From an uncultured Deferribacteres bacterium (GTDB taxonomy: Bacteria; Zhuqueibacterota; JdFR-76; DREG01): a DNA stretch of 33,244 nt. Numbering within the stretch: the stretch's first letter is position 1; each line of letters opens with the position of its first letter. Made by a program: the position numbers and the translations under genes. The DNA is taken from contig CAJVYQ010000008.1 in assembly GCA_913009825.1 (NCBI GenBank), positions 78,484 to 111,727 on the forward strand. Reading direction: 5' to 3'. A model generated the notes under the pieces. That model was not told where the DNA came from. It did no database searches and saw only the letters and a list, made by a program, of their open reading frames with translations. Of this stretch, positions 6,467 through 16,631 are shown piece after piece.

Positions 6467-7486
6467 CTACTTCAGCAGCGCCAGCGCCGAATTAAAAACT
6501 TCTTCCGGCGAAATATCCCGCAGGCAGGCAAGGGTTTTACGCGGGCATTTTTTTCTGCCGTGATCCGTGCACGGGCGGCATGCCATCTCCTTTTGCATCA
6601 CCGCCTGTTTTTCCGCTATTGGACTGAAACCAAATTCCGGAACCGTGGAGCCGAAAATAGTAATCGTAGGGATGTTTACCGCGCTTCCCAAATGTGTGGG
6701 CGCACTGTCGTTACAGACCAGCAACCGGCATTTTGAGAGGAAATATGCCGTTTGTCGTAAAGTCAACTTGCCGATAAAATTGACTGCACGGCTGCCGGCA
6801 TCGGCAATGATGAAATCTCCCAGCGCAATGTCTTTACTGCCGCCGATCAGACAAATCCGATAGCCCCGGTTGAGAAACAGGTCTGTCAGTCCGGTAAAAT
6901 TCATTTCCGGCCACCGTTTAGTGAACCAGATTGACCCGGGAGCAAGGGCAATAATTTTTTCTTTTCCGGTCAGATCATTGGCAGCCATCAGACCCTTTAC
7001 CATCGTTTCATCCTGTTCGTCCGGGAACAATTCCTGGCGGATCACACCCAAATTTATCACACCAAACGGTTTCAGCAAAGACAAGTTTCGTGACACCTCA
7101 TGTCCTTCGTAATTGTACTTCACTACGTGAGAGTACAACCATTTTGCCGGACTGCGGTCAAATCCGATGCGGATGGGAATTCCCGCCAGCCGCGCCAGCA
7201 AAGCGGTTCGATAAGAACGATGAGGAAGCAGGGCAATGTCAAATTTTTCATCTTTTATCTTCCGCACCCATTTCTTCAAATAGGAAACGCTGTTTCCCCG
7301 GCTATGTTTATCATAATTCCAGAGTTTTTTCACAAAAGGATTATGTTCTAAAATATTTTTTGTCTCCGGTATCACCATTGCCGTAACCTGACTGCCGGGC
7401 AGTTCCTGGCGAATTGCCCGAAACAGAGGGGTTACCAGAATGACATCGCCGGGGAAAGCGGTTTGAATCAGCAGGATTTTACTCAT
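6467..7486 (-). CDS. waaF: ADP-heptose:LPS heptosyltransferase II-like (GT9)
   Basis: 339 residues from the chosen ATG at 7486 (MSKILLIQTAFPGDVILVTP). This start overlaps the stop of the upstream acyltransferase as ATGA, typical of coupled genes; an upstream in-frame ATG at 7540 would add 18 unfamily-like residues. GT9 features are clear: the N-terminal FPGDV-TPLFRA segment, APGSIWFTKRWP in the second Rossmann domain and NDSAPTHLGSAVNIPTITIF followed by GSTVPEFGFSP. A WaaF-like cysteine tail (CRPCTDHGRKKCPRK) is present. The predicted reaction is transfer of L-glycero-D-manno-heptose to the LPS inner core at the cytoplasmic face. The distinction from WaaC/WaaQ rests on this C-terminal Cys/His segment and is moderate. 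Confidence 0.85.
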   Translation of the reverse strand: MSKILLIQTAFPGDVILVTPLFRAIRQELPGSQVTAMVIPETKNILEHNPFVKKLWNYDKHSRGNSVSYLKKWVRKIKDEKFDIALLPHRSYRTALLARLAGIPIRIGFDRSPAKWLYSHVVKYNYEGHEVSRNLSLLKPFGVINLGVIRQELFPDEQDETMVKGLMAANDLTGKEKIIALAPGSIWFTKRWPEMNFTGLTDLFLNRGYRICLIGGSKDIALGDFIIADAGSRAVNFIGKLTLRQTAYFLSKCRLLVCNDSAPTHLGSAVNIPTITIFGSTVPEFGFSPIAEKQAVMQKEMACRPCTDHGRKKCPRKTLACLRDISPEEVFNSALALLK

Positions 7487-8385
7487 TGGTTCGGCTCCGT
7501 TTCCGGGGCGGTTTTCCACCGCCGGTGCAGCCAGAACCATTGTTCCGGATGAAGACGAATATCCTGCTCCAATCGGCGCACATGAATTTCCGTCACTTTC
7601 CGAACCGCGCTTCTCAGGTTGCCTTTTTCCACGGCGAAATGAAGTCGTTCAAAATAGATCCGATAGCGGCCGTTTTTTAACAGGGCCGTTGTATAAACGA
7701 TGGGAACCCGGTTACGGAAGTGATAGACCGCCGGCCCGGGCGGTGTAGAGGCGAGACGGCCAAAAAACGGAACAAAAACACCGTTCCTGCCCGCATCCTG
7801 ATCGGCAAGAAGACAAACCATCTCACCACGACCGAAAATTTTAGGGAAAGTGGATTTGGCATGTTCCCGGGAGATAATTTTCAGCCCGGAAAGATTCCTG
7901 TGTTCATTGATCGATCTGTCCACTTTACTATTTCTCATTTCAGCCGCCACAGCCCAGGCGGGAAATCCTTTTAAAGCAACAGCTGATCCCAAAATTTCCC
8001 AATTACCGATGTGACCGGTCAGCAAAATCACTCCCCTGTCCTCATTCATCGCCTCTTCCAAAACCTCCCAGTTAGCCGAATCGATGAACTGATTGATATC
8101 GTGGCGAATAATTTTGGGCAGTATGATCTGTTCAATGGAAACGCGACTGAAATGGAAGAACACTTTTTGGGCCAGACGTTGTATTTCGGCATCGGTTTTC
8201 CCGGGGAATGCCCGTTGCAAATTTTTCACCGTTACATCTCTGCGGATTTTCAACCGCTTGAACCAAAAGGCGCCCAGTTTATTATGAAATTCGATGGCTT
8301 CCGGAATCGGTTTGGCTCGCAGCCAGCCGCTTAGAACCCGGAAAATAAAATACTCAAAATTATTTTTTAAGCCGATTCTATCCAT
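7483..8385 (-). CDS. LpxL/HtrB-family lipid A acyltransferase-like protein
   Basis: 300 residues of the lysophospholipid/lauroyl acyltransferase family. The active-site segment LTGHIGNWEILGSAVA gives the H-x4-E form of the catalytic H-x4-D/E dyad; LADQDAGRNGVFVPFFGR is the acyl-acceptor segment, and HPEQWFWLHRRWK near the C-terminus is a family hallmark. The N-terminus carries a weak membrane-association segment (NNFEYFIFRVLSGWL). It likely adds a secondary acyl chain to a lipid A precursor. It is the first gene of a six-gene operon with LPS-core transferases and is coupled to the next gene by an ATGA overlap. Which acyl position it modifies cannot be read from the sequence. Confidence 0.88.
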   Translation of the reverse strand: MDRIGLKNNFEYFIFRVLSGWLRAKPIPEAIEFHNKLGAFWFKRLKIRRDVTVKNLQRAFPGKTDAEIQRLAQKVFFHFSRVSIEQIILPKIIRHDINQFIDSANWEVLEEAMNEDRGVILLTGHIGNWEILGSAVALKGFPAWAVAAEMRNSKVDRSINEHRNLSGLKIISREHAKSTFPKIFGRGEMVCLLADQDAGRNGVFVPFFGRLASTPPGPAVYHFRNRVPIVYTTALLKNGRYRIYFERLHFAVEKGNLRSAVRKVTEIHVRRLEQDIRLHPEQWFWLHRRWKTAPETEPNQ

Positions 8386-8466
8386 TTTTTCATTTTAACA
8401 TTGCAAGCTGTCAAGTTAATAAATTCAATTTTATCATTTTAGTACGTTTGTTACATTCATAAAATC

Positions 8467-8776
8467 CTAATACTTTAGCTATTTGAAAATAGATAGTACC
8501 TAAATTGAGCGATTTTAATGTCATTCCGTAGGAATCTTGTTGGTTCAGTGCACAGAACTAACAAGATTCTTTTAGAATGACAAAACTCTTTAGGTGGTTG
8601 TTTCAAGATAAGAATCGCTCAATTTAGGTAGTAATTATCAGGTTGTCATTCCCGAATGCTCCTATCGGGAATCTATTTTTCAGATTCATCTGGATTCCCG
8701 GTCTGCAGCAGGCAGGCCGCTTAAATTATACGGGAATGACAATTTAGTGTACTGTTTCAAAAAACTAAAGTGTTAC
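8467..8776. repeat. M3 palindromic element, copy 1, interrupted by an M1 element
   Basis: The right end TTTCAAAAAACTAAAGTG (8755-8772, continuing TTAC to 8776) is complementary, 18 of 23 positions, to the left end beginning CTAATACTTTAGC at 8467. The flanks are ATAAAATC (8459-8466) and ATAAAACC (8777-8784), an 8-bp duplication with one change. An M1 element sits inside (8499-8628); without it and its 5-bp duplication this copy is about 175 bp. The interior has a CATTCCCGAATG...CGGGAATC palindrome and a GCCTGC-type REP-like palindrome near 8699-8718. Confidence 0.7.
8499..8628. repeat. M1 palindromic element, copy B, nested in M3 copy 1
   Basis: 130 bp with 18-bp inverted ends (8499-8516 and 8611-8628, 17 of 18 complementary) flanked by the 5-bp duplication TAGTA (8494-8498 and 8629-8633). 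Its complement aligns with copy A at 1219-1372 almost throughout, except that the GC-rich insert of copy A is missing. This makes copy B the cleaner example of the family. Confidence 0.87.
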
Positions 8777-8808
8777 ATAAAACCAAACATTTGCCGGCCG
8801 GATTTGAC

Positions 8809-9729
8809 TCACTCATTTTCCTCATCTTTTGCCGCTGCTTCCATTTCATCTTCCTCCCAGCGGCGGTAGGTGCGGTAATTACGAATGCGCACAAAAATGA
8901 AGGCGATAATCGCTATGAAGGGTAAAATCACCCAGAAAAAAATATCCGATTGAAAGATAAAATTCCAACGGTATTTTTTCCCCACCTCTTTGAACACATG
9001 CCACTGAAAAGATTCCTGATTCATTTCCAGTACATCGTCGAATGCCCGTTCCCATCGATTGTATTTCCGCGTCTTTTTCAGAATATCGCTGAGCGCATCC
9101 CAACCCAGCGCATCCACAATCATCTTCACGGAAAAGTAGCTCTCCGCATACGCCAGATTGGCTTTGGATTGCTGAAACCGCAGCACATTTTCAATTTCCG
9201 GTAATGTCAGCAATGAGTTGGTCAGGTTGGCCTTCGACAACGTGGAAATATAGTTGGAAAAATTTTCTCCGGAGATTATCATTGCCACCCCCTCTTCAAA
9301 CCAGCGGGGAATGATACCGGGAGAAAAATTCTTGCCGATCAGCACGTGTACCAATTCATGGCGAAGCACAACCGGCAATTCTTTGCCATTTTTTTTTGCC
9401 AATGAAACGTAGACAATCCCCACCTCGGGTTTGGTCACCGCCTGACTCCATTCCGGCACTTTTTTATTAGTAAGTTTCTGCCAGCTCTTTTCGTCTTCCG
9501 CTAAAAAAATATTCACTTCACCGGAAAATGGAATTTTGAGCCGGGCCGTGATTTCCGCCAGCGCTTTATCCGTCGTCTGCAAGGTGGTTTCGGCAACGAA
9601 ACGGTTCCCCCGGGCATAAAATATCCGCACAGAATCATTGCGCATTACCTGCCAATCGGCCGAAAATAACGGATGTATCATCAGCCCGAATAAAAAGAAG
9701 CAGAAAAATGTAAAATTCAACCGTTTCAT
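8809..9729 (-). CDS. Membrane-anchored gluzincin-type (peptidase MA-like) metalloprotease
   Basis: 306 residues. An N-terminal signal peptide (about 1-23, FFCFFLFGLMIHPLFSA) is followed by a periplasmic domain with the zinc motif HELVHVLIG (H-E-x-x-H), then IIPRWFEEGVAMI about 20 residues on, which provides the third zinc ligand Glu as in the peptidase-MA / gluzincin group. Near the C-terminus is one transmembrane helix (about 258-280, DIFFWVILPFIAIIAFIFV) followed by a basic and then very acidic tail (EEDEMEAAAKDEENE). The predicted protein is a periplasmic, membrane-tethered zinc protease with its tail in the cytoplasm; the substrate is unknown. It stands alone, between a repeat-filled gap and an IS200 relic. 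Confidence 0.8.
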   Translation of the reverse strand: MKRLNFTFFCFFLFGLMIHPLFSADWQVMRNDSVRIFYARGNRFVAETTLQTTDKALAEITARLKIPFSGEVNIFLAEDEKSWQKLTNKKVPEWSQAVTKPEVGIVYVSLAKKNGKELPVVLRHELVHVLIGKNFSPGIIPRWFEEGVAMIISGENFSNYISTLSKANLTNSLLTLPEIENVLRFQQSKANLAYAESYFSVKMIVDALGWDALSDILKKTRKYNRWERAFDDVLEMNQESFQWHVFKEVGKKYRWNFIFQSDIFFWVILPFIAIIAFIFVRIRNYRTYRRWEEDEMEAAAKDEENE

Positions 9730-9824
9730 ATCAACTAAGTGGTCATAAGATAATTCAACGGTTTTTCAGATTCAAGGATTTTCATTGCGGGAAGGGGACA
9801 TTAAGAATAGAGAAAGTCAACTTT

Positions 9825-10442
9825 CCACTGCCAGAGGCGGTGGCTTGAAATATTGCCATGGAAGATGCGATGGGATTCATACCTCAATACCGGATAATTC
9901 AATTTCCCTTTGTCAATATCTTTTTCTTTTTTCTCTTGCCATTTTACATACTTACGAATTCGTTCTTCGTCAAGGCCGACTGTACTTACACAGTACCTTC
10001 GTGACCAAAAATGTCGACATCAATACTGTTTACCAACTCTTTCGTAGCTATGAAATAGCCGTATCGATAACTTTCCCTTTAAAAATCCCATTATCGAACT
10101 GCTGAATATTTTTGGGGAATCTCTATCACTAAATGCACATGATCTTCTTGGATATTTAACTCTAATATCTCCACCAAATCTTTCTGCTTGCATAAAAAGT
10201 ATAACTATTGCTTACAATACTCGGCTATCTCATCCTTTAATATTTTAAAGCGATACTTGGGACAAAAAACTATTATGATACTTGCATTCATAAATTGGTT
10301 GACTTAACTTTGTAAACCGTTTCATTGGATTGTACCCCCCTGGTTTATCGCACTTTAAAGGGAGGTACAACTTATTTATGATCCGTTATTAATACAAACG
10401 GAAGAACCTTTTTAAGAAAACCACTACCTGAAGCAGTGGTTT
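9825..10442 (-). mobile_element. Decayed IS200/IS605-family insertion element
   Basis: The tnpA relic lies between two related hairpins: 9825-9843 (CCACTGCCAGAGGCGGTGG) and 10421-10439 (CCACTACCTGAAGCAGTGG, extendable to 10418-10442), 15 of 19 positions alike and in the same orientation. Subterminal hairpins of this kind are what the Y1 transposase recognises at the two ends of IS200/IS605 elements. No tnpB/IscB-type gene is present. Exact ends are uncertain because these elements make no target duplication. A second inverted repeat (GTACCCCCCTGG...AGGGAGGTAC, 10334-10371) lies between the relic gene's start and the upstream hairpin. Confidence 0.75.
9850..10325 (-). pseudogene. tnpA relic, IS200/IS605-family Y1 transposase
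   Basis: Reading the minus strand from an ATG at 10325 gives MKRFTKLSQPIYECKYH, then, after a frame change, VFCPKYRFKILKDEIAEYC, DLVEILELNIQEDHVHLV, GKLSIRLFHSYERVGKQY, RHFWSRRYCVSTVGLDEE and RIRKYVKWQEKKEKD. These fit the IS200 transposase from end to end. The HUH metal-binding pair (H-V-H, codons in 10133-10144) and the catalytic tyrosine (codon 9948-9950) survive, but several frameshifts and stop codons break the frame, so no active protein can be made. The start and end are approximate. Confidence 0.8.
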
Positions 10443-10489
10443 TATGAATCAATAAAAACCTTCTCACAGAAAGGAAAGGAGGATTAAAC

Positions 10490-11716
10490 ATGTGTGTAAC
10501 CAATCGGAGAGATTTTTTTAGAATTGCCGGAAGCGGTTCGGTGGCGGTTGTTTTAACCGGCGCTTCCGCTCTTTCTGCGTTCAATTCCGAAAGGATTGAT
10601 ACGAATTTCAATGTAGTAGAACAAATTGATCCCTGGATTGAACTGAACATGGAGCATCTGGCTTCCAATGTAAATGAAGTGCGAAGAAAAATTGGAAAGA
10701 GACCGATCATGGCCGTAATAAAATGCAACGCGTACGGTCATGGAGCTGTAGAAATTGCAACCGCACTGCAGAACAACAGCCATATTCAACATTTTGCGGT
10801 AGTAAAAGTCAGAGAGGCTCTCACTTTACGACAAAATAACATCCGGGGAATGATTTTGAATATGGGACCATTCAATCGGAGCGAGGCAAAAGAGGTGATT
10901 AAACATCGAATTTCCCAGGCTGTTTATTCTGATGCGGTGGATGTTCTTGCGGAAGAAGCACGAAAGCTCGGCAAAACCGCCACTGTTCACATTTATCTGG
11001 ATACAGGATTGGGCCGCGTTGGCGTGCCGCACCGGAAAGCGCTGGCCTTTATTGAAAAAGTATCCGCCATGCCTGAAATAAAAATTGAGGGCATTTTTAC
11101 AGGAATGACCGAAGATGATGAGATGGATCGGATGCAGATAGAGCGCATCACAGCAGTTTGCGAAGCAGCCAATATGAAAGGTATCAATGTTGGGATTCGC
11201 CACGCAGCAGCAAGCGCAGAAGTGGATCGCTATCCGTTTACTTACCTGGATATGGTACGGCCCGGCAATTGCCTGGTCGGTTTAGAACCGGAGAGACAGC
11301 ACAGCATGAAAATCAGACCGGTAATGAGTTTTAAAACCCGCGTTATTTATGTAAAAAAAATGTACCCGGGAGAATCCATTTCTTATCACCGGGCATATAA
11401 AATAACCAAAGAGACTTTAATTGCAACGCTGCCGTGCGGCTATTCTGACGGTTATCCCCCGGTTGTTTTAAATAAAGCCGATGTGCTTATCAGAGGCAGG
11501 CGGTACCGTACAGTTGCACCCATTACGGCGAACCATACGATGGTTGATATTACCGGTGCAGAAAATATCAGAATTGGTGACGAAGTCGTGCTTTGGGGTA
11601 AACAGGGAAAGGAACAGATCACGAAAGTTGAGTTGGAAATGCTGGCCCCCAACGCGACAAACACTTATCGCATGGCAACCCGAACACGTTCATATTTGCC
11701 CAGAGTAGTTGTCTGA
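10490..11716 (+). CDS. Tat-exported alanine racemase-like PLP enzyme
   Basis: 408 residues; the ATG follows a strong AAAGGAGG at a spacing of 7. The N-terminus NRRDFFRIAGSGSVAVVLTG is a twin-arginine signal (RR at 6-7, hydrophobic stretch, then Ala-rich cleavage region), so the enzyme is expected in the periplasm. The body is a fold-III PLP racemase: AVIKCNAYGHG carries the PLP lysine (Lys78), YLDMVRPGNCLVGLEPE matches the alanine racemase barrel, and SYHRAY (Tyr at about 299) followed by TLPCGYSDGYPP holds the second catalytic base. Where alanine racemases normally have G-R-x-S/C-M-D, this one has TVAPITANHTMVD (341-353), so the usual Met-Asp pair is replaced. It may racemise a different or broader set of amino acids. 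It stands alone, just after the IS200 relic. Confidence 0.85.
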   Translation: MCVTNRRDFFRIAGSGSVAVVLTGASALSAFNSERIDTNFNVVEQIDPWIELNMEHLASNVNEVRRKIGKRPIMAVIKCNAYGHGAVEIATALQNNSHIQHFAVVKVREALTLRQNNIRGMILNMGPFNRSEAKEVIKHRISQAVYSDAVDVLAEEARKLGKTATVHIYLDTGLGRVGVPHRKALAFIEKVSAMPEIKIEGIFTGMTEDDEMDRMQIERITAVCEAANMKGINVGIRHAAASAEVDRYPFTYLDMVRPGNCLVGLEPERQHSMKIRPVMSFKTRVIYVKKMYPGESISYHRAYKITKETLIATLPCGYSDGYPPVVLNKADVLIRGRRYRTVAPITANHTMVDITGAENIRIGDEVVLWGKQGKEQITKVELEMLAPNATNTYRMATRTRSYLPRVVV

Positions 11717-11827
11717 TGTTGGTGATAAATCGAGGCATTTTACGCAACCCCGGAAGCTGAATTTGTTTGCAACTCAATTTTCGGTTTTATCTCAAAACGG
11801 CCATTTTTCAGAGAAGGAGAATGTACT

Positions 11828-13201
11828 CTATCTTACAATGGGTAAACCGTATTTTTTTGCTTTGCGGTAAATCGTGGCGCGGCCGATTCCCAACTTTCTC
11901 GCCGTCAGGGAGACGTTGCCTTCGCATTCCAGCAGAGCTTTTCTGATCGCTTCTTCTTCCAGCTTTTCAATCCAGGTATTCAAAGTTTTACTGGTATCTA
12001 CAACCTTGCGTTCTCCGATCACACGAACATTGGGCGGCAAATCATTGACAACAACCTCGTTGGAAGAGGCAAGTAGTACAGCCCGTTCAAGTGCATTTTC
12101 CAACTCTCTCACGTTTCCCGGCCAGTGGTATGCCATGAGCATTTCCAGAGCGTCGGAGGAGATTTCCCGCACTTCCTTTCCCTCCCGGTCGGCATATCTT
12201 TCTAAAAATAACTGGGCCATGATGGGAACATCCTCTTTACGTTCACGCAGAGGAGGAATTCTGATGGGAAATACGGCCAGCCGGTAAAACAGGTCTTCCC
12301 TGAATTCGCCTTTCCGGATTGCTTCTTCAATATCCTTGTTGGTGGCGGCAATAACCCGCACATCCACTTTAATTAAATCGTTTCCACCAACCCGCTCAAA
12401 TTCCCTCTCCTGCAGAACACGTAAAACTTTAACCTGGGTTGCCGGTGACATTTCTCCGATTTCATCTAAAAAAATGGTACCGCCGTCCGCTAATTCAAAT
12501 TTACCGATCCTTTTATTGGAAGCGCCGGTAAACGAACCTTTTTCATGACCAAAAAGTTCGCTTTCCAACAATGATTCCGGCAGTGCGGAACAATTTACCG
12601 CTACAAACGGTTTGTTCTTTCGCTTCACACTACCATAATGAATAGCACGGGCGATCAGTTCTTTTCCTGTGCCGCTCTCACCCTGTAACAAAACCGTCAC
12701 ACTGCTGTCGATTACTTTGTTCACCGCACGAAAAACGTCCTGCATGGGACCACTCTGGCCGACAATGTTTTTAAACTGATATTTCTCTTGCAATTCCTGG
12801 CGCAATTTTTCCACTTCGCCGCGCAATTCATTATTTTCGATGGCATTGCGGATAGTGATCAGCAGCCGGTCGCCGGAAAATGGTTTGGTGATAAAATCGT
12901 ATGCTCCCATTTTCATGGAACGCACCGCAATATCGATGGTGCCATGAGCGGACATCATGATAACCGGAATCCGGGAGTACTGCTGTTTGATCTGCTGCAG
13001 AGTTTCGATGCCATCGATACCGGGCATCTGAATATCCAGCAAGATCAAATCGGGCACATCTTCCCGCAGAAAACGGAGACACGCTTCCCCGTTGGATGCA
13101 TGAAGCGGAATATAAATTTTTTCTTTTTTCAGATGAATTTCAATCATACGGCGAATATTTCTGTCATCGTCAACGATTAAAATTCTGTATTTCTTCTTCA
13201 C
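11828..13201 (-). CDS. NtrC-family sigma-54-dependent response regulator
   Basis: 457 residues in three domains. Receiver (about 5-120): acidic pocket DDD at 11-13, phospho-acceptor Asp56 in LLDIQMPG, Ser84 and Lys106. AAA+ domain (about 145-380): Walker A GESGTGKE near 172, sigma-54 contact loop HEKGSFTGA (the common GAFTGA motif with Ser in second place), Walker B GGTIFLDEIGEM and an arginine-finger segment FREDLFYRLAVFPI. C-terminal Fis-type helix-turn-helix: NVSLTARKLGIGRATIYRKA. It should activate sigma-54 promoters when phosphorylated. No histidine kinase gene adjoins it, so its partner lies elsewhere, and no -24/-12 promoter was identified with confidence nearby. Confidence 0.95.
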   Translation of the reverse strand: MKKKYRILIVDDDRNIRRMIEIHLKKEKIYIPLHASNGEACLRFLREDVPDLILLDIQMPGIDGIETLQQIKQQYSRIPVIMMSAHGTIDIAVRSMKMGAYDFITKPFSGDRLLITIRNAIENNELRGEVEKLRQELQEKYQFKNIVGQSGPMQDVFRAVNKVIDSSVTVLLQGESGTGKELIARAIHYGSVKRKNKPFVAVNCSALPESLLESELFGHEKGSFTGASNKRIGKFELADGGTIFLDEIGEMSPATQVKVLRVLQEREFERVGGNDLIKVDVRVIAATNKDIEEAIRKGEFREDLFYRLAVFPIRIPPLRERKEDVPIMAQLFLERYADREGKEVREISSDALEMLMAYHWPGNVRELENALERAVLLASSNEVVVNDLPPNVRVIGERKVVDTSKTLNTWIEKLEEEAIRKALLECEGNVSLTARKLGIGRATIYRKAKKYGLPIVR

Positions 13202-13607
13202 TTACGCAGCCTCCATTTGAACCGTAAATTTATTAAACTGGATCGCAAAATAGCCGGTTTTCTATCGATTGAAATCAAGAACGAAACACCAATTTCCTTT
13301 TTTATCGGCAATTTACAGCAAAAAAGTGAATTCCCCTTCACATTGCCAAAAGAACAGTCATTCTTTTACAGTAAACCATCACAGGGGTAAGTGAATGATC
13401 TCTTATAAACCGCTGAAGCAGCTAAAATAACTTTTTTATTTTAGCCCACAACTTAAGTCGCGGGCCAACGTATCGACACGGATTTAGGATGTTTTCATAC
13501 ATCCTGTGACCGATTACATTTTGCAGTTTTACATCCTCATGGTGAAAGAAAAAGTAACACAAAATTCATTTTTTGTCTCACTGCCATCCCTTCAGCATAA
13601 GAAAATT
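13202..13607. other. Intergenic region upstream of the response regulator, with two hairpins
   Basis: No gene is seen. Two adjacent inverted repeats lie at 13421-13445 (GCTAAAATA arm, 7-nt spacer) and 13444-13465 (GCCCACAACTTAAG...; on the minus strand it pairs throughout with G-U wobbles). Together they could form a terminator or an extragenic palindrome between the gene at 13792 and the response regulator. A possible GGATG...CATCC inverted repeat occurs near 13487-13502. No promoter could be assigned. Confidence 0.4.
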
Positions 13608-13730
13608 GTAACTATTCACGAATGCCGGTTTCATGATGTGAGATAAACTTTCGACTCCCTGCCTGCAACAAGCAGGCGGAAAGTCGAAGCATGAGCAACG
13701 TTACCGGATAGAGCCTATCTGAATAGTTAC
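13608..13730. repeat. M2 palindromic element, copy 1
   Basis: 123 bp bounded by GTAACTATTCACG (13608-13620) and the complementary TGAATAGTTAC (ending 13730). The interior has TTTCGACT...AGTCGAAG arms around a GCCTGC...GCAGGC palindrome (about 13660-13679). The flanks are A-rich and give at best 8 of 9 matching bases, which is not convincing as a duplication. Confidence 0.7.
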
Positions 13731-13791
13731 AAAAAAATTATTAAATTTCCGGGTTGGGAAAGAAATTCATCCTAAATCCAAGAGGAAAATA

Positions 13792-14850
13792 CTAAATAAG
13801 ACCTTTAGAATCAAATATTTTTTTTAGATTTTTTTCCCCCGTCACAATTTTTATCTCAATTTCCAGGATATGCAAGTTGCGCAATTGCGCTCTGATCACC
13901 GGATCGATTCGTTCCGCGTCTTTTTCGGTTGTAATGAGCCAATCGGCCTGATATCTTTCTTTCTGTGCCAGTAGCTGCTCAAGTTCTTTTCGCTTAAAAA
14001 AATGGTGATCATTGAATGAACGAAAAAAAACAACGTTCGCAGCTAACATTTCCAGTGTATGTTGAAAAGATTTTGGTTTGGCGATCCCGGCAAAAGCGAT
14101 CACCTTTTTCCCTGTCAGAGCTGCAAGAGGCAGGCGTTTTGTCCGGTTTGCATCGACAATTCCGGCAGGAGAATAATTGGAATAAATAACAGGCTGTTGT
14201 AATTTTTTCTCTACATCCTCCCTGATTTCCGCCAGACTGCGTTGCGTCTGATTCAGCCGTGTGACCCAGATCAAATCAGCGCGTCGCAACTGGGTAAGCG
14301 GTTCACGCAATTTACCGGCGGGGAGCAGGCGTTTCCTTCCCCACAAATCGGTTGCGTCCAATGTGACAATATTCACATCCCGGTCGATTTGCCGGTGCTG
14401 AAACGCATCGTCGAGAATGAACAGGTCCGGCTGTAGCTGCCGCATGGCCATTTTGCTGCCGCGAAGGCGGTTAGCATCTACAATGACAACCCCATTTTCC
14501 AAATGGCGCGCCAGGATGCGCGGTTCATCCCCGGTTAAAACCGGCGCAGTCCTTTCCAGATTTATTCTATCGAGACAGAGAGTTTGACCCGATTTCCTGC
14601 CGTATCCCCGGGTGAGAATGGCCACTTTTTTGTTTGAACCGTTAAAATAGCGCGCCAAAAAACGAACCAAAGGCGTTTTACCCGTCCCGCCCACCGAAAT
14701 ATTTCCCACACAGATAACCGGCCGGGGAAGACGAATTACCGGCAGTAAGCCGTGATCAAAATAGAAATTGCGGATTTCCATCATGCCGCCGAAAAGCGCC
14801 GAGAGAGGCCAGAGCGGCAACGAGATAAAATCAGATTTTGAAAAAGGCAT
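13792..14850 (-). CDS. lpxK: Tetraacyldisaccharide 4'-kinase
   Basis: Phosphorylates the 4' position of the tetraacyl disaccharide 1-phosphate to form lipid IVA, the sixth step of the Raetz pathway, at the cytoplasmic face of the inner membrane. Its 352 residues include an N-terminal membrane-associating segment (LPLWPLSALFGGMMEIRNF), the P-loop CVGNISVGGTGKTPLV at about 46-61, ILTRGYGRKSG, TGDEPRILAR, the family motif LDDAFQHRQIDRDVNIV and LLPAGKLREPL. Length and motif order are normal for LpxK. The gene overlaps the end of the DUF374 gene upstream by 20 bp and closes the lipid A operon. Three A/T-rich codons precede the stop; an M2 repeat lies just downstream. Confidence 0.95.
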   Translation of the reverse strand: MPFSKSDFISLPLWPLSALFGGMMEIRNFYFDHGLLPVIRLPRPVICVGNISVGGTGKTPLVRFLARYFNGSNKKVAILTRGYGRKSGQTLCLDRINLERTAPVLTGDEPRILARHLENGVVIVDANRLRGSKMAMRQLQPDLFILDDAFQHRQIDRDVNIVTLDATDLWGRKRLLPAGKLREPLTQLRRADLIWVTRLNQTQRSLAEIREDVEKKLQQPVIYSNYSPAGIVDANRTKRLPLAALTGKKVIAFAGIAKPKSFQHTLEMLAANVVFFRSFNDHHFFKRKELEQLLAQKERYQADWLITTEKDAERIDPVIRAQLRNLHILEIEIKIVTGEKNLKKIFDSKGLI

Positions 14851-15508
14851 CTAACTTTTGCTCTTGTTCGATCATTTCGGAATCGAGCCGTTGTTTAAGT
14901 TTGTTGAGTTCTTCACCGGCGAGATCCTGTGGTACCCGGAACGGTTCGCCAATATTAATCAGGACTCTGGCAAACGGCTTGGGCAGCATGTAACGATCCC
15001 AACTTTTGAAACGAATAGCGGGCCGGGAGGAAAAAGATACCGGCAAGATGGGAACCTGCGCCTGTTGAGCCATTAATATAACACCTTTTTTCGATTTGTG
15101 CGGCGGACCGGTGGGGCCATCCGGAATGATGACCCCACTTTCCCCCTGTTGCAACAAAGTTACCATTTTATAAAACGCTTCCCTGCCGCCGCGGGAACTG
15201 CTGCCGCGTACAGTCGTGTAACCCAGTTTCTGAATCGTTCTGGCAATCATTTCACCGTCCAGATGCCGGCTCACCAACGCAACCATTCGATGAAATCGGA
15301 AGAAATAAGCACTCATTAAAAAACGACCGTGCCAGCTTGCCACAAGAAAATTCTGCTTCTGCCGCCACAGTTTTTTCACAATCTCTCCCCCTTCTACTTT
15401 AATCCGGTAGGTGCGGCCCAGCAACAGGATAAAAACCCAGCCCAGATAAACAGACAAGTAAAATTCAATTTTTTTCCTTAGCCGCAGTTCCGCAACAGAT
15501 TCAGTCAT
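14831..15508 (-). CDS. DUF374 lysophospholipid acyltransferase-like protein
   Basis: 225 residues of the DUF374 family, related to PlsC/LpxL acyltransferases. A hydrophobic N-terminal anchor (FYLSVYLGWVFILLLGRTY, about 12-30) is followed by FLVASWHGRFLMSAYFFR, which carries the catalytic-type His, then VRGSSSRGGREAFYKM and the highly conserved IPDGPTGPPHKSKKGVI. Members often sit beside lpxB or lpxK and waaA and are presumed to act on lipid A or phospholipid acyl chains; direct biochemistry is limited. Here the gene is wedged between lpxB (8-bp overlap) and lpxK (20-bp overlap), which supports a lipid A role. Confidence 0.88.
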   Translation of the reverse strand: MTESVAELRLRKKIEFYLSVYLGWVFILLLGRTYRIKVEGGEIVKKLWRQKQNFLVASWHGRFLMSAYFFRFHRMVALVSRHLDGEMIARTIQKLGYTTVRGSSSRGGREAFYKMVTLLQQGESGVIIPDGPTGPPHKSKKGVILMAQQAQVPILPVSFSSRPAIRFKSWDRYMLPKPFARVLINIGEPFRVPQDLAGEELNKLKQRLDSEMIEQEQKLDAFFKI

Positions 15509-16631
15509 TTTCCCTCATCATCGAAAAAGCCAGTTCCGCCACCCGTTTGGCGGAACCTTTACTTCCCAATCGTTTTCGGATCAAATTGAAACCTGATGCC
15601 ATTTTTTTTCGCTCCTGTTCATTTTGCTGTAACTTCAACAGAACCGGCAGCACTTTTTCCGGACAAAAATCATCCTGAATAAATTCCGGTACTACAAGTT
15701 GCCCGGCAATAATGTTGGCCATGGCAATATAATCTACCTTGATGAGTTTTTTGGCCAACCAGTAGGAAAATGGCGACACTTTGTAAACCACCACGAACGG
15801 CGTGCCAACAATAGTGCCCTCCACAGTGGCCGTACCGGAAGCGACTAACATCAGAGATGAATAGGCCATCAGCGGGTAGGTTTCCGGCACCCGCGTAATT
15901 TCCATATCCTGTAGGATTTTATCATAAATTGCAGCCGGGACATTTTCGGAAATGCTTACACAAAGCCGGATTTCGGGAACCTTCCATTTAAACTGTCCGG
16001 CAATTTCTACCATATCGGGAAGCAGGCGGTGAATTTCCTGAATCCGGCTTCCCGGCAGCAACGCCATAACAGGAGCACCTGCCGTCAGATGATATTTCTC
16101 ATAAAATTCATTTTTTGTGGGACGGATTTGCAACGAATCCAAAAGGGGATGCCCCACAAAGGTGACAGGAACGTTGTGGTTTCGGTAAAAATCTTCTTCG
16201 AATTTAAAAATTACTGCCATTCTGTCAACAAACCGGGCGATTTTTTTTACACGGTTTTTCCCCCAGGCCCAAACCTGTGGACTGATATAATAGAGCACCT
16301 TTAGCCCCAAATGATGCACAAACGCCGCAATGCGCAGGTTAAAACCGGGATAGTCGATCAAAATGACCAGATCCGGTCTCTGTTCCCGGAGAAGCCTTTT
16401 TATGTGATGCAGTACTTGCCAGATAAAAGGCAGATGTCTGATGACTTCTGAGAAACCCAAAAAAGCCATTTGCGAAATATCGTATTCCGTCTCCATACCG
16501 GCGGCACGCATCTTTTCACCGCCGATGCCCCAAATTTTGATTTGGCAATCGATATTGCGCAGCTCCCGCACCAGGCCTGATCCGTGCAAATCACCGGACG
16601 TTTCGCCGGCTATGATGAAAACATTTTTCAT
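15501..16631 (-). CDS. lpxB: Lipid-A-disaccharide synthase
   Basis: GT19 glycosyltransferase that joins UDP-2,3-diacylglucosamine and lipid X to make the lipid A disaccharide. 376 residues, a normal length. Recognisable blocks in order: FIIAGETSGDLHGSGLV at 5-21, KIWGIGGEKMRAAGME, MAFLGFSEVIRHLP, LVILIDYPGFNLRIA, LKVLYYISPQVWAWGKNRVK, VTFVGHPLLD, LLPGSRIQEIHRLLP, LVASGTATVEGTIVGTPFVV and YKVSPFSYWLAKKLIKVDYI. It starts 4 bp after the ICMT-like gene's stop and overlaps the DUF374 gene by 8 bp, so the lipid A genes are co-transcribed. No lpxA, lpxC or lpxD is in the window. Confidence 0.97.
   Translation of the reverse strand: MKNVFIIAGETSGDLHGSGLVRELRNIDCQIKIWGIGGEKMRAAGMETEYDISQMAFLGFSEVIRHLPFIWQVLHHIKRLLREQRPDLVILIDYPGFNLRIAAFVHHLGLKVLYYISPQVWAWGKNRVKKIARFVDRMAVIFKFEEDFYRNHNVPVTFVGHPLLDSLQIRPTKNEFYEKYHLTAGAPVMALLPGSRIQEIHRLLPDMVEIAGQFKWKVPEIRLCVSISENVPAAIYDKILQDMEITRVPETYPLMAYSSLMLVASGTATVEGTIVGTPFVVVYKVSPFSYWLAKKLIKVDYIAMANIIAGQLVVPEFIQDDFCPEKVLPVLLKLQQNEQERKKMASGFNLIRKRLGSKGSAKRVAELAFSMMREND

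Follow-up and report, generated by a model that had tools for sequence, protein, structure and literature searches.

What would an alanine racemase do outside the cytoplasm, and would it still act on alanine there? The question is raised by a gene at positions 10490-11716 (+) of the window, the 33,244-nucleotide stretch of a contig from an uncultured Deferribacteres bacterium that was analyzed here. An earlier note had described its product as a twin-arginine-exported relative of alanine racemase with an altered active-site loop, and had suggested a broad or non-alanine specificity, for instance the production of D-amino acids that edit peptidoglycan. By sequence comparison, a racemase-type protein with a Tat leader and a rebuilt pocket is not a single-gene oddity but is shared across several phyla. 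The window protein is probably an uncharacterized exported racemase that converts amino acids between their L and D forms outside the cytoplasm, beside an ordinary Alr inside, and its specificity is probably not limited to alanine.

An alanine racemase fold encoded by a solitary gene

The reading frame is intact and encodes 408 residues from an ATG start, seven nucleotides downstream of a Shine-Dalgarno-like AAGGAGG read directly from the DNA (10476-10482, +); no promoter or terminator signal at the gene rose above chance. The product passes the Pfam cut-offs for Ala_racemase_N (174.2 bits, cut-off 24.1) and Ala_racemase_C (106.4 bits, cut-off 25), and that of the alanine racemase model TIGR00492 (267 bits, cut-off 168), although ordinary Alr proteins from the same phylum score higher on the latter, at 389-418 bits. 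Its AlphaFold2 model has the alanine racemase fold, with a mean pLDDT of 90.3 and a poorly modelled leader. Foldseek matched this model to alanine racemases at a TM of about 0.84, the best PDB match being the alanine racemase 4y2w (TMq 0.84, 31% identity). Another of the nearest solved structures is 4ecl, the serine racemase domain of VanTG.

The gene stands alone, as the earlier note had observed. Both flanking genes, encoding a Peptidase_MA_2 protein and a sigma-54 response regulator, lie on the minus strand, neither ddl nor murF flanks it, and an operon was rejected. Genes for a lipid A acyltransferase, a heptosyltransferase-type protein, LpxK and LpxB are found on both sides (window positions 6470-16631), which fits a diderm host.

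A conserved twin-arginine leader

A leader and linker of about 46 residues (10490-10627, +), absent in ordinary Alr, precede the racemase domain and form the low-confidence part of the model. Residues 5-11 (10502-10522, +) read NRRDFFR, and the stretch after RRDFFR (residues 6-11) is moderately hydrophobic, with a mean Kyte-Doolittle value of 1.78 over 15 residues. The window protein thus combines an RRx[F] motif in the n-region and a hydrophobic stretch, features of a Tat substrate, with a genome that encodes TatC. TatC is present in all six KSB1-like genomes. RRx[FI] is present in 26 of 26 readable members of a 27-protein Tat clade, the masked N-terminus of L047 being left out of the count, so the twin-arginine signal first read from this one gene has held up in its relatives. 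With such conservation across phyla, Tat export of the clade racemases is well supported, and export of the window racemase is predicted. In one clade member (L046:1492-2709) the Tat motif is followed by LVNC, a lipobox-like sequence that also points to export and suggests that this racemase may be a membrane-anchored lipoprotein.

The 27 Tat-type proteins group together in a tree of 83 sequences, set apart from the rest by a branch with 100/100 support, and split into clade A, with 16 members including the window racemase, and clade B, with 11. Recurrence of the Tat signal and the altered loop in other members of one clade is more than chance would give. The distribution is patchy: Tat-type orthologues were found by related-genome search in 6 of 82 genomes of the window's phylum, its own included, and in 6 of 149 genomes of the phylum around L056 (E <= 1e-85). 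Relatives in the GTDB collection belong to Aminicenantes, candidate division B38, Gemmatimonadota, SM23_31, KSB1, Acidobacteria gp2, and Ignavibacteriales and Bacteroidetes bins. In the literature searched, mostly outside subscription journals, we found no published Tat-exported alanine racemase.

Catalytic residues are kept in a rebuilt pocket

We compared the 27 clade members with 54 other Alr-type proteins, using the residue numbers of Geobacillus Alr, which were assigned from the alignment and from counts along conserved motifs. The PLP Schiff-base lysine, Lys39, corresponds to Lys78 of the window racemase (10721-10723, +; within VIKCNAYGHG), and the second catalytic base, Tyr265', to Tyr299 (11384-11386, +; within SISYHRAY). 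Both had been reported as kept in the window protein, and both are invariant in the 27 and in the 54. Arg136, His200 and Arg219 are likewise kept in 27/27. In Geobacillus Alr, Arg219 is the residue that holds the PLP ring nitrogen unprotonated. An interaction with this effect has been described, and it favors racemization over other PLP reactions (PMC3245724). As the clade keeps Arg219, racemization is the expected chemistry, and by alignment the residues for a two-base mechanism are retained.

The surroundings of these residues are another matter. In the window racemase the loop G308-R-V-C-M-D-Q314 is replaced by A343-P-I-T-A-N-H349 (11516-11536, +), directly followed by TMVD, and the altered loop recurs in other clade members. 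Met312, present in all 54 other proteins, is Ala or Ser in 26 of the 27, the remaining sequence (L076) being truncated at that point. His166, which stacks on PLP in Alr, is kept in 54/54 and lost in 27/27; Thr, Pro, Ser, Gly or Glu stands in its place, Gly205 in the window racemase (11102-11104, +). Asp313 has become Asn throughout clade A (16/16) and Ser in nine of ten readable members of clade B, while its salt-bridge partner Arg363 has given way to other residues, usually Leu, and to Tyr402 in the window racemase (11693-11695, +). Further changes in the clade are Asn203 to Ser (Ala in the window racemase), Gly266 to His in clade A, residue 314 to His, and, in most members, Gly308 to Ala and Ile352 to Ser. 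The substitution of APITANH for GRVCMDQ was therefore correctly noticed and is shared across the clade, but to speak of an altered loop understates a pocket in which His166, Asn203, Gly266, Gly308, Ile352 and Arg363 have changed as well.

Positions 313 and 363 (window residues 348 and 402, bases 11531-11533 and 11693-11695) are coupled. In the 83-protein alignment Asp occurs with Arg in 49 rows, neither occurs in 33, and no row is mixed. The broad-spectrum Bsr racemases have lost the pair too, as has a clade whose loop reads M-N (L084, L086, L087, L091). One change on the tree suffices for the loss of Met312 and one for that of His166; the pair requires two. Crystal structures show the Arg363-Asp313 salt bridge and contacts of Asp313, via waters, with the PLP oxygen and the substrate; Asp313Asn (D322N) in Mycobacterium tuberculosis Alr lowers D-cycloserine affinity, and Bsrs, according to the same authors, naturally carry Asn here (PMC10288493). 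The Tat clade, in which the whole Met312/Asp313/Arg363 network is lost, offers a natural test of that network. With these changes the site should admit amino acids that differ from alanine or are larger than it.

Measured against Alr/DadX (TIGR00492; PF01168 and PF00842), the window racemase thus shares the two-domain fold, the PLP lysine, Tyr265', Arg136, His200 and Arg219, and differs in its Tat signal, in its lower TIGR00492 score and in the replacement of His166, Met312, Gly308, Asn203, Asp313, Ile352 and Arg363. Where canonical Alr has C311-M312-D313 with His166, it has T-A-N with Gly.

Could the protein, at least in this genome, have lost or altered its racemase reaction, and be a PLP protein with different chemistry or a copy in decay? 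His166 and the Asp313-Arg363 pair are gone. The window racemase also sits on a long branch (0.75), and some of its changes are private or rare (Lys129 to Tyr, His166 to Gly, Asn203 to Ala); this copy may therefore be less active than its relatives or differently specialized. We nevertheless regard loss or change of the reaction as very unlikely, given that both bases and Arg219 are invariant in the clade and that the reading frame is intact behind a strong ribosome-binding site.

Comparison with Bsr and VanT racemases

The exported racemases of this fold that we found described are the broad-spectrum Bsr enzymes (BsrV, Pseudomonas putida Alr and lysine racemase; NF009879). Like the window racemase, they have predicted export and Asn313 and lack Arg363. 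Bsrs keep His166 and Met312, whereas the Tat clade does not; the Bsr loop S-M-N-T with His166 contrasts with T-A-N-H and Gly in the window racemase. On NF009879 the window racemase scores 177.7 bits against a cut-off of 434, while a Bsr control (L081) reaches 532.7. For ordinary Alr-type proteins from the window's phylum the values are 152-183 bits, so the window racemase has no special likeness to Bsr, and membership in that family was rejected. In the free tree Bsr forms a separate clade on a long branch and is not joined to the Tat clade, but a tree joining the two, with two to three Bsr sequences included, was not rejected (p-AU 0.556).

The protein may still work like a Bsr and produce non-canonical D-amino acids in the periplasm, either for incorporation into peptidoglycan or for release as signals. 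In favor of this are the predicted export and the Asp313Asn change common to Bsr and the Tat clade, the tolerated joint tree, and the example of BsrV, which is periplasmic and has a broad site (PMC7890096). We consider such a role unlikely, since the NF009879 score is no higher than that of ordinary Alr-type proteins, His166 and Met312 are kept in Bsr and lost here, and no YkuD L,D-transpeptidase that could use such D-amino acids was found in the genome. Nor can Asp313Asn serve as a specific mark of broad specificity, a use we rejected because another clade of Alr-like proteins has Asn too. Of the reading proposed earlier, Tat export and a non-standard pocket are strengthened by conservation across phyla, whereas a broad or non-alanine specificity is plausible: Asp313Asn is shared with Bsr but also found elsewhere, and Met312Ala and the loss of His166 are absent in the Bsrs compared.

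The catalytic domain of the VanT serine racemase (NF033131; 4ecl) has the same fold and gives the second-best NCBIfam score, 253 bits, which is below the cut-off of 460. VanT, judging by titles, is membrane-bound with a cytoplasmic catalytic domain; the window racemase has a Tat leader instead.

A probable racemase beside the ordinary Alr

The window's genome encodes a canonical Alr with the loop GRVCMDQ (L001), a second Alr-like protein (L002:1063-2214, minus strand; loop GGNAMDAMMVD, Glu at position 129) and a YggS-like protein. The Tat form is accordingly not the only Alr of its genome; had it been, this would have counted against the earlier reading. The second Alr-like protein groups with L032, L111 and L112 in a clade of its own. 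Two M19 dipeptidases are encoded as well, and no YkuD domain was found in the genome, which makes peptidoglycan editing through L,D-transpeptidases unlikely and weakens the role first suggested for the protein. Exchange of D-amino acids by penicillin-binding proteins would be another possible route into peptidoglycan. P. putida Alr, a periplasmic broad-spectrum enzyme, serves lysine and arginine catabolism, and no incorporation of its D-amino acids into peptidoglycan was found (PMC6034422). It offers a precedent for a catabolic role, with which the lack of L,D-transpeptidases in the window's genome agrees.

We propose that the window protein has the alanine racemase fold and racemizes amino acids with PLP and two bases, Lys78 and Tyr299'. 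It would fold and bind PLP in the cytoplasm and then cross the inner membrane by the Tat pathway. Its pocket is remodelled by loss of the PLP-stacking His166, by Ala or Ser for Met312 and by removal of the Asp313-Arg363 bridge, which lies close to the PLP phenolate and the substrate. Once in the periplasm, the enzyme would bring L- and D-amino acids into equilibrium. Its role would most likely be in scavenging or turnover of amino acids derived from the envelope and from peptides, and less likely in D-Ala supply, which the cytoplasmic Alr can cover. We infer activity, wider specificity and physiological role, and localization likewise, from sequence. Export together with racemase activity, taken alone, is likely; toward the whole model, with a pocket wider than that of Alr, we lean with modest confidence.

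If this is true, the clade, with pocket changes unlike those of Bsr, would add a further lineage with D-amino-acid chemistry in the periplasm, from phyla on which experimental data are scarce. Annotation by TIGR00492 would call its members plain alanine racemases, and a role in D-Ala supply would be misread from it.

Seven draft genomes bear on that role (G083, G086, G088, G090, G094, G141 and G204; the genomes behind L048, L054, L057, L064 and L079 together with G141 and G204). In these no Ala_racemase_C protein besides the Tat form was found, which would suit a part in D-Ala supply there; either that supply is otherwise unexplained or the drafts are incomplete; being drafts, they are a lead only. 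Together with the passed TIGR00492 cut-off, they speak for an exported alanine, or alanine/serine, racemase of ordinary specificity whose pocket changes are neutral or adaptive to the periplasm. We find this quite unlikely, as the changes hit positions invariant in the 54 other Alr-type proteins and the window's genome has its canonical Alr. One could go further and see a separate family of Tat-exported, PLP-loaded racemases with a pocket chemistry of its own, patchy across several mainly uncultured diderm phyla, which in some lineages would be the sole such racemase, making D-amino acids outside the cytoplasm for subsequent import. We hold this larger picture to be very doubtful.

Gene neighborhoods

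The neighbors of the clade racemase genes vary from genome to genome. D-aminoacylase-like amidohydrolases, an M19 dipeptidase, an enolase-superfamily epimerase-like enzyme, an Na:Ala symporter, an L-serine dehydratase and SSS-type symporters (the type assigned by eye) were seen nearby, but no arrangement is widely shared. Amidohydro_3 genes near some members are uninformative, with 7 to 40 matches in each genome, and we rejected the neighborhood as a guide to function on both counts. Alr proteins with a Bsr-like loop on alphaproteobacterial plasmids (L133:679-1800 and L134:562-1836) are encoded by genes that share a few bases with the amidohydrolase gene upstream of them. About 2 kb from one clade racemase gene lies a gene for a D-aminoacylase-like Amidohydro_3 protein (L064:1279-2976, minus strand) with a Tat motif of its own, ISRRDFLKK.
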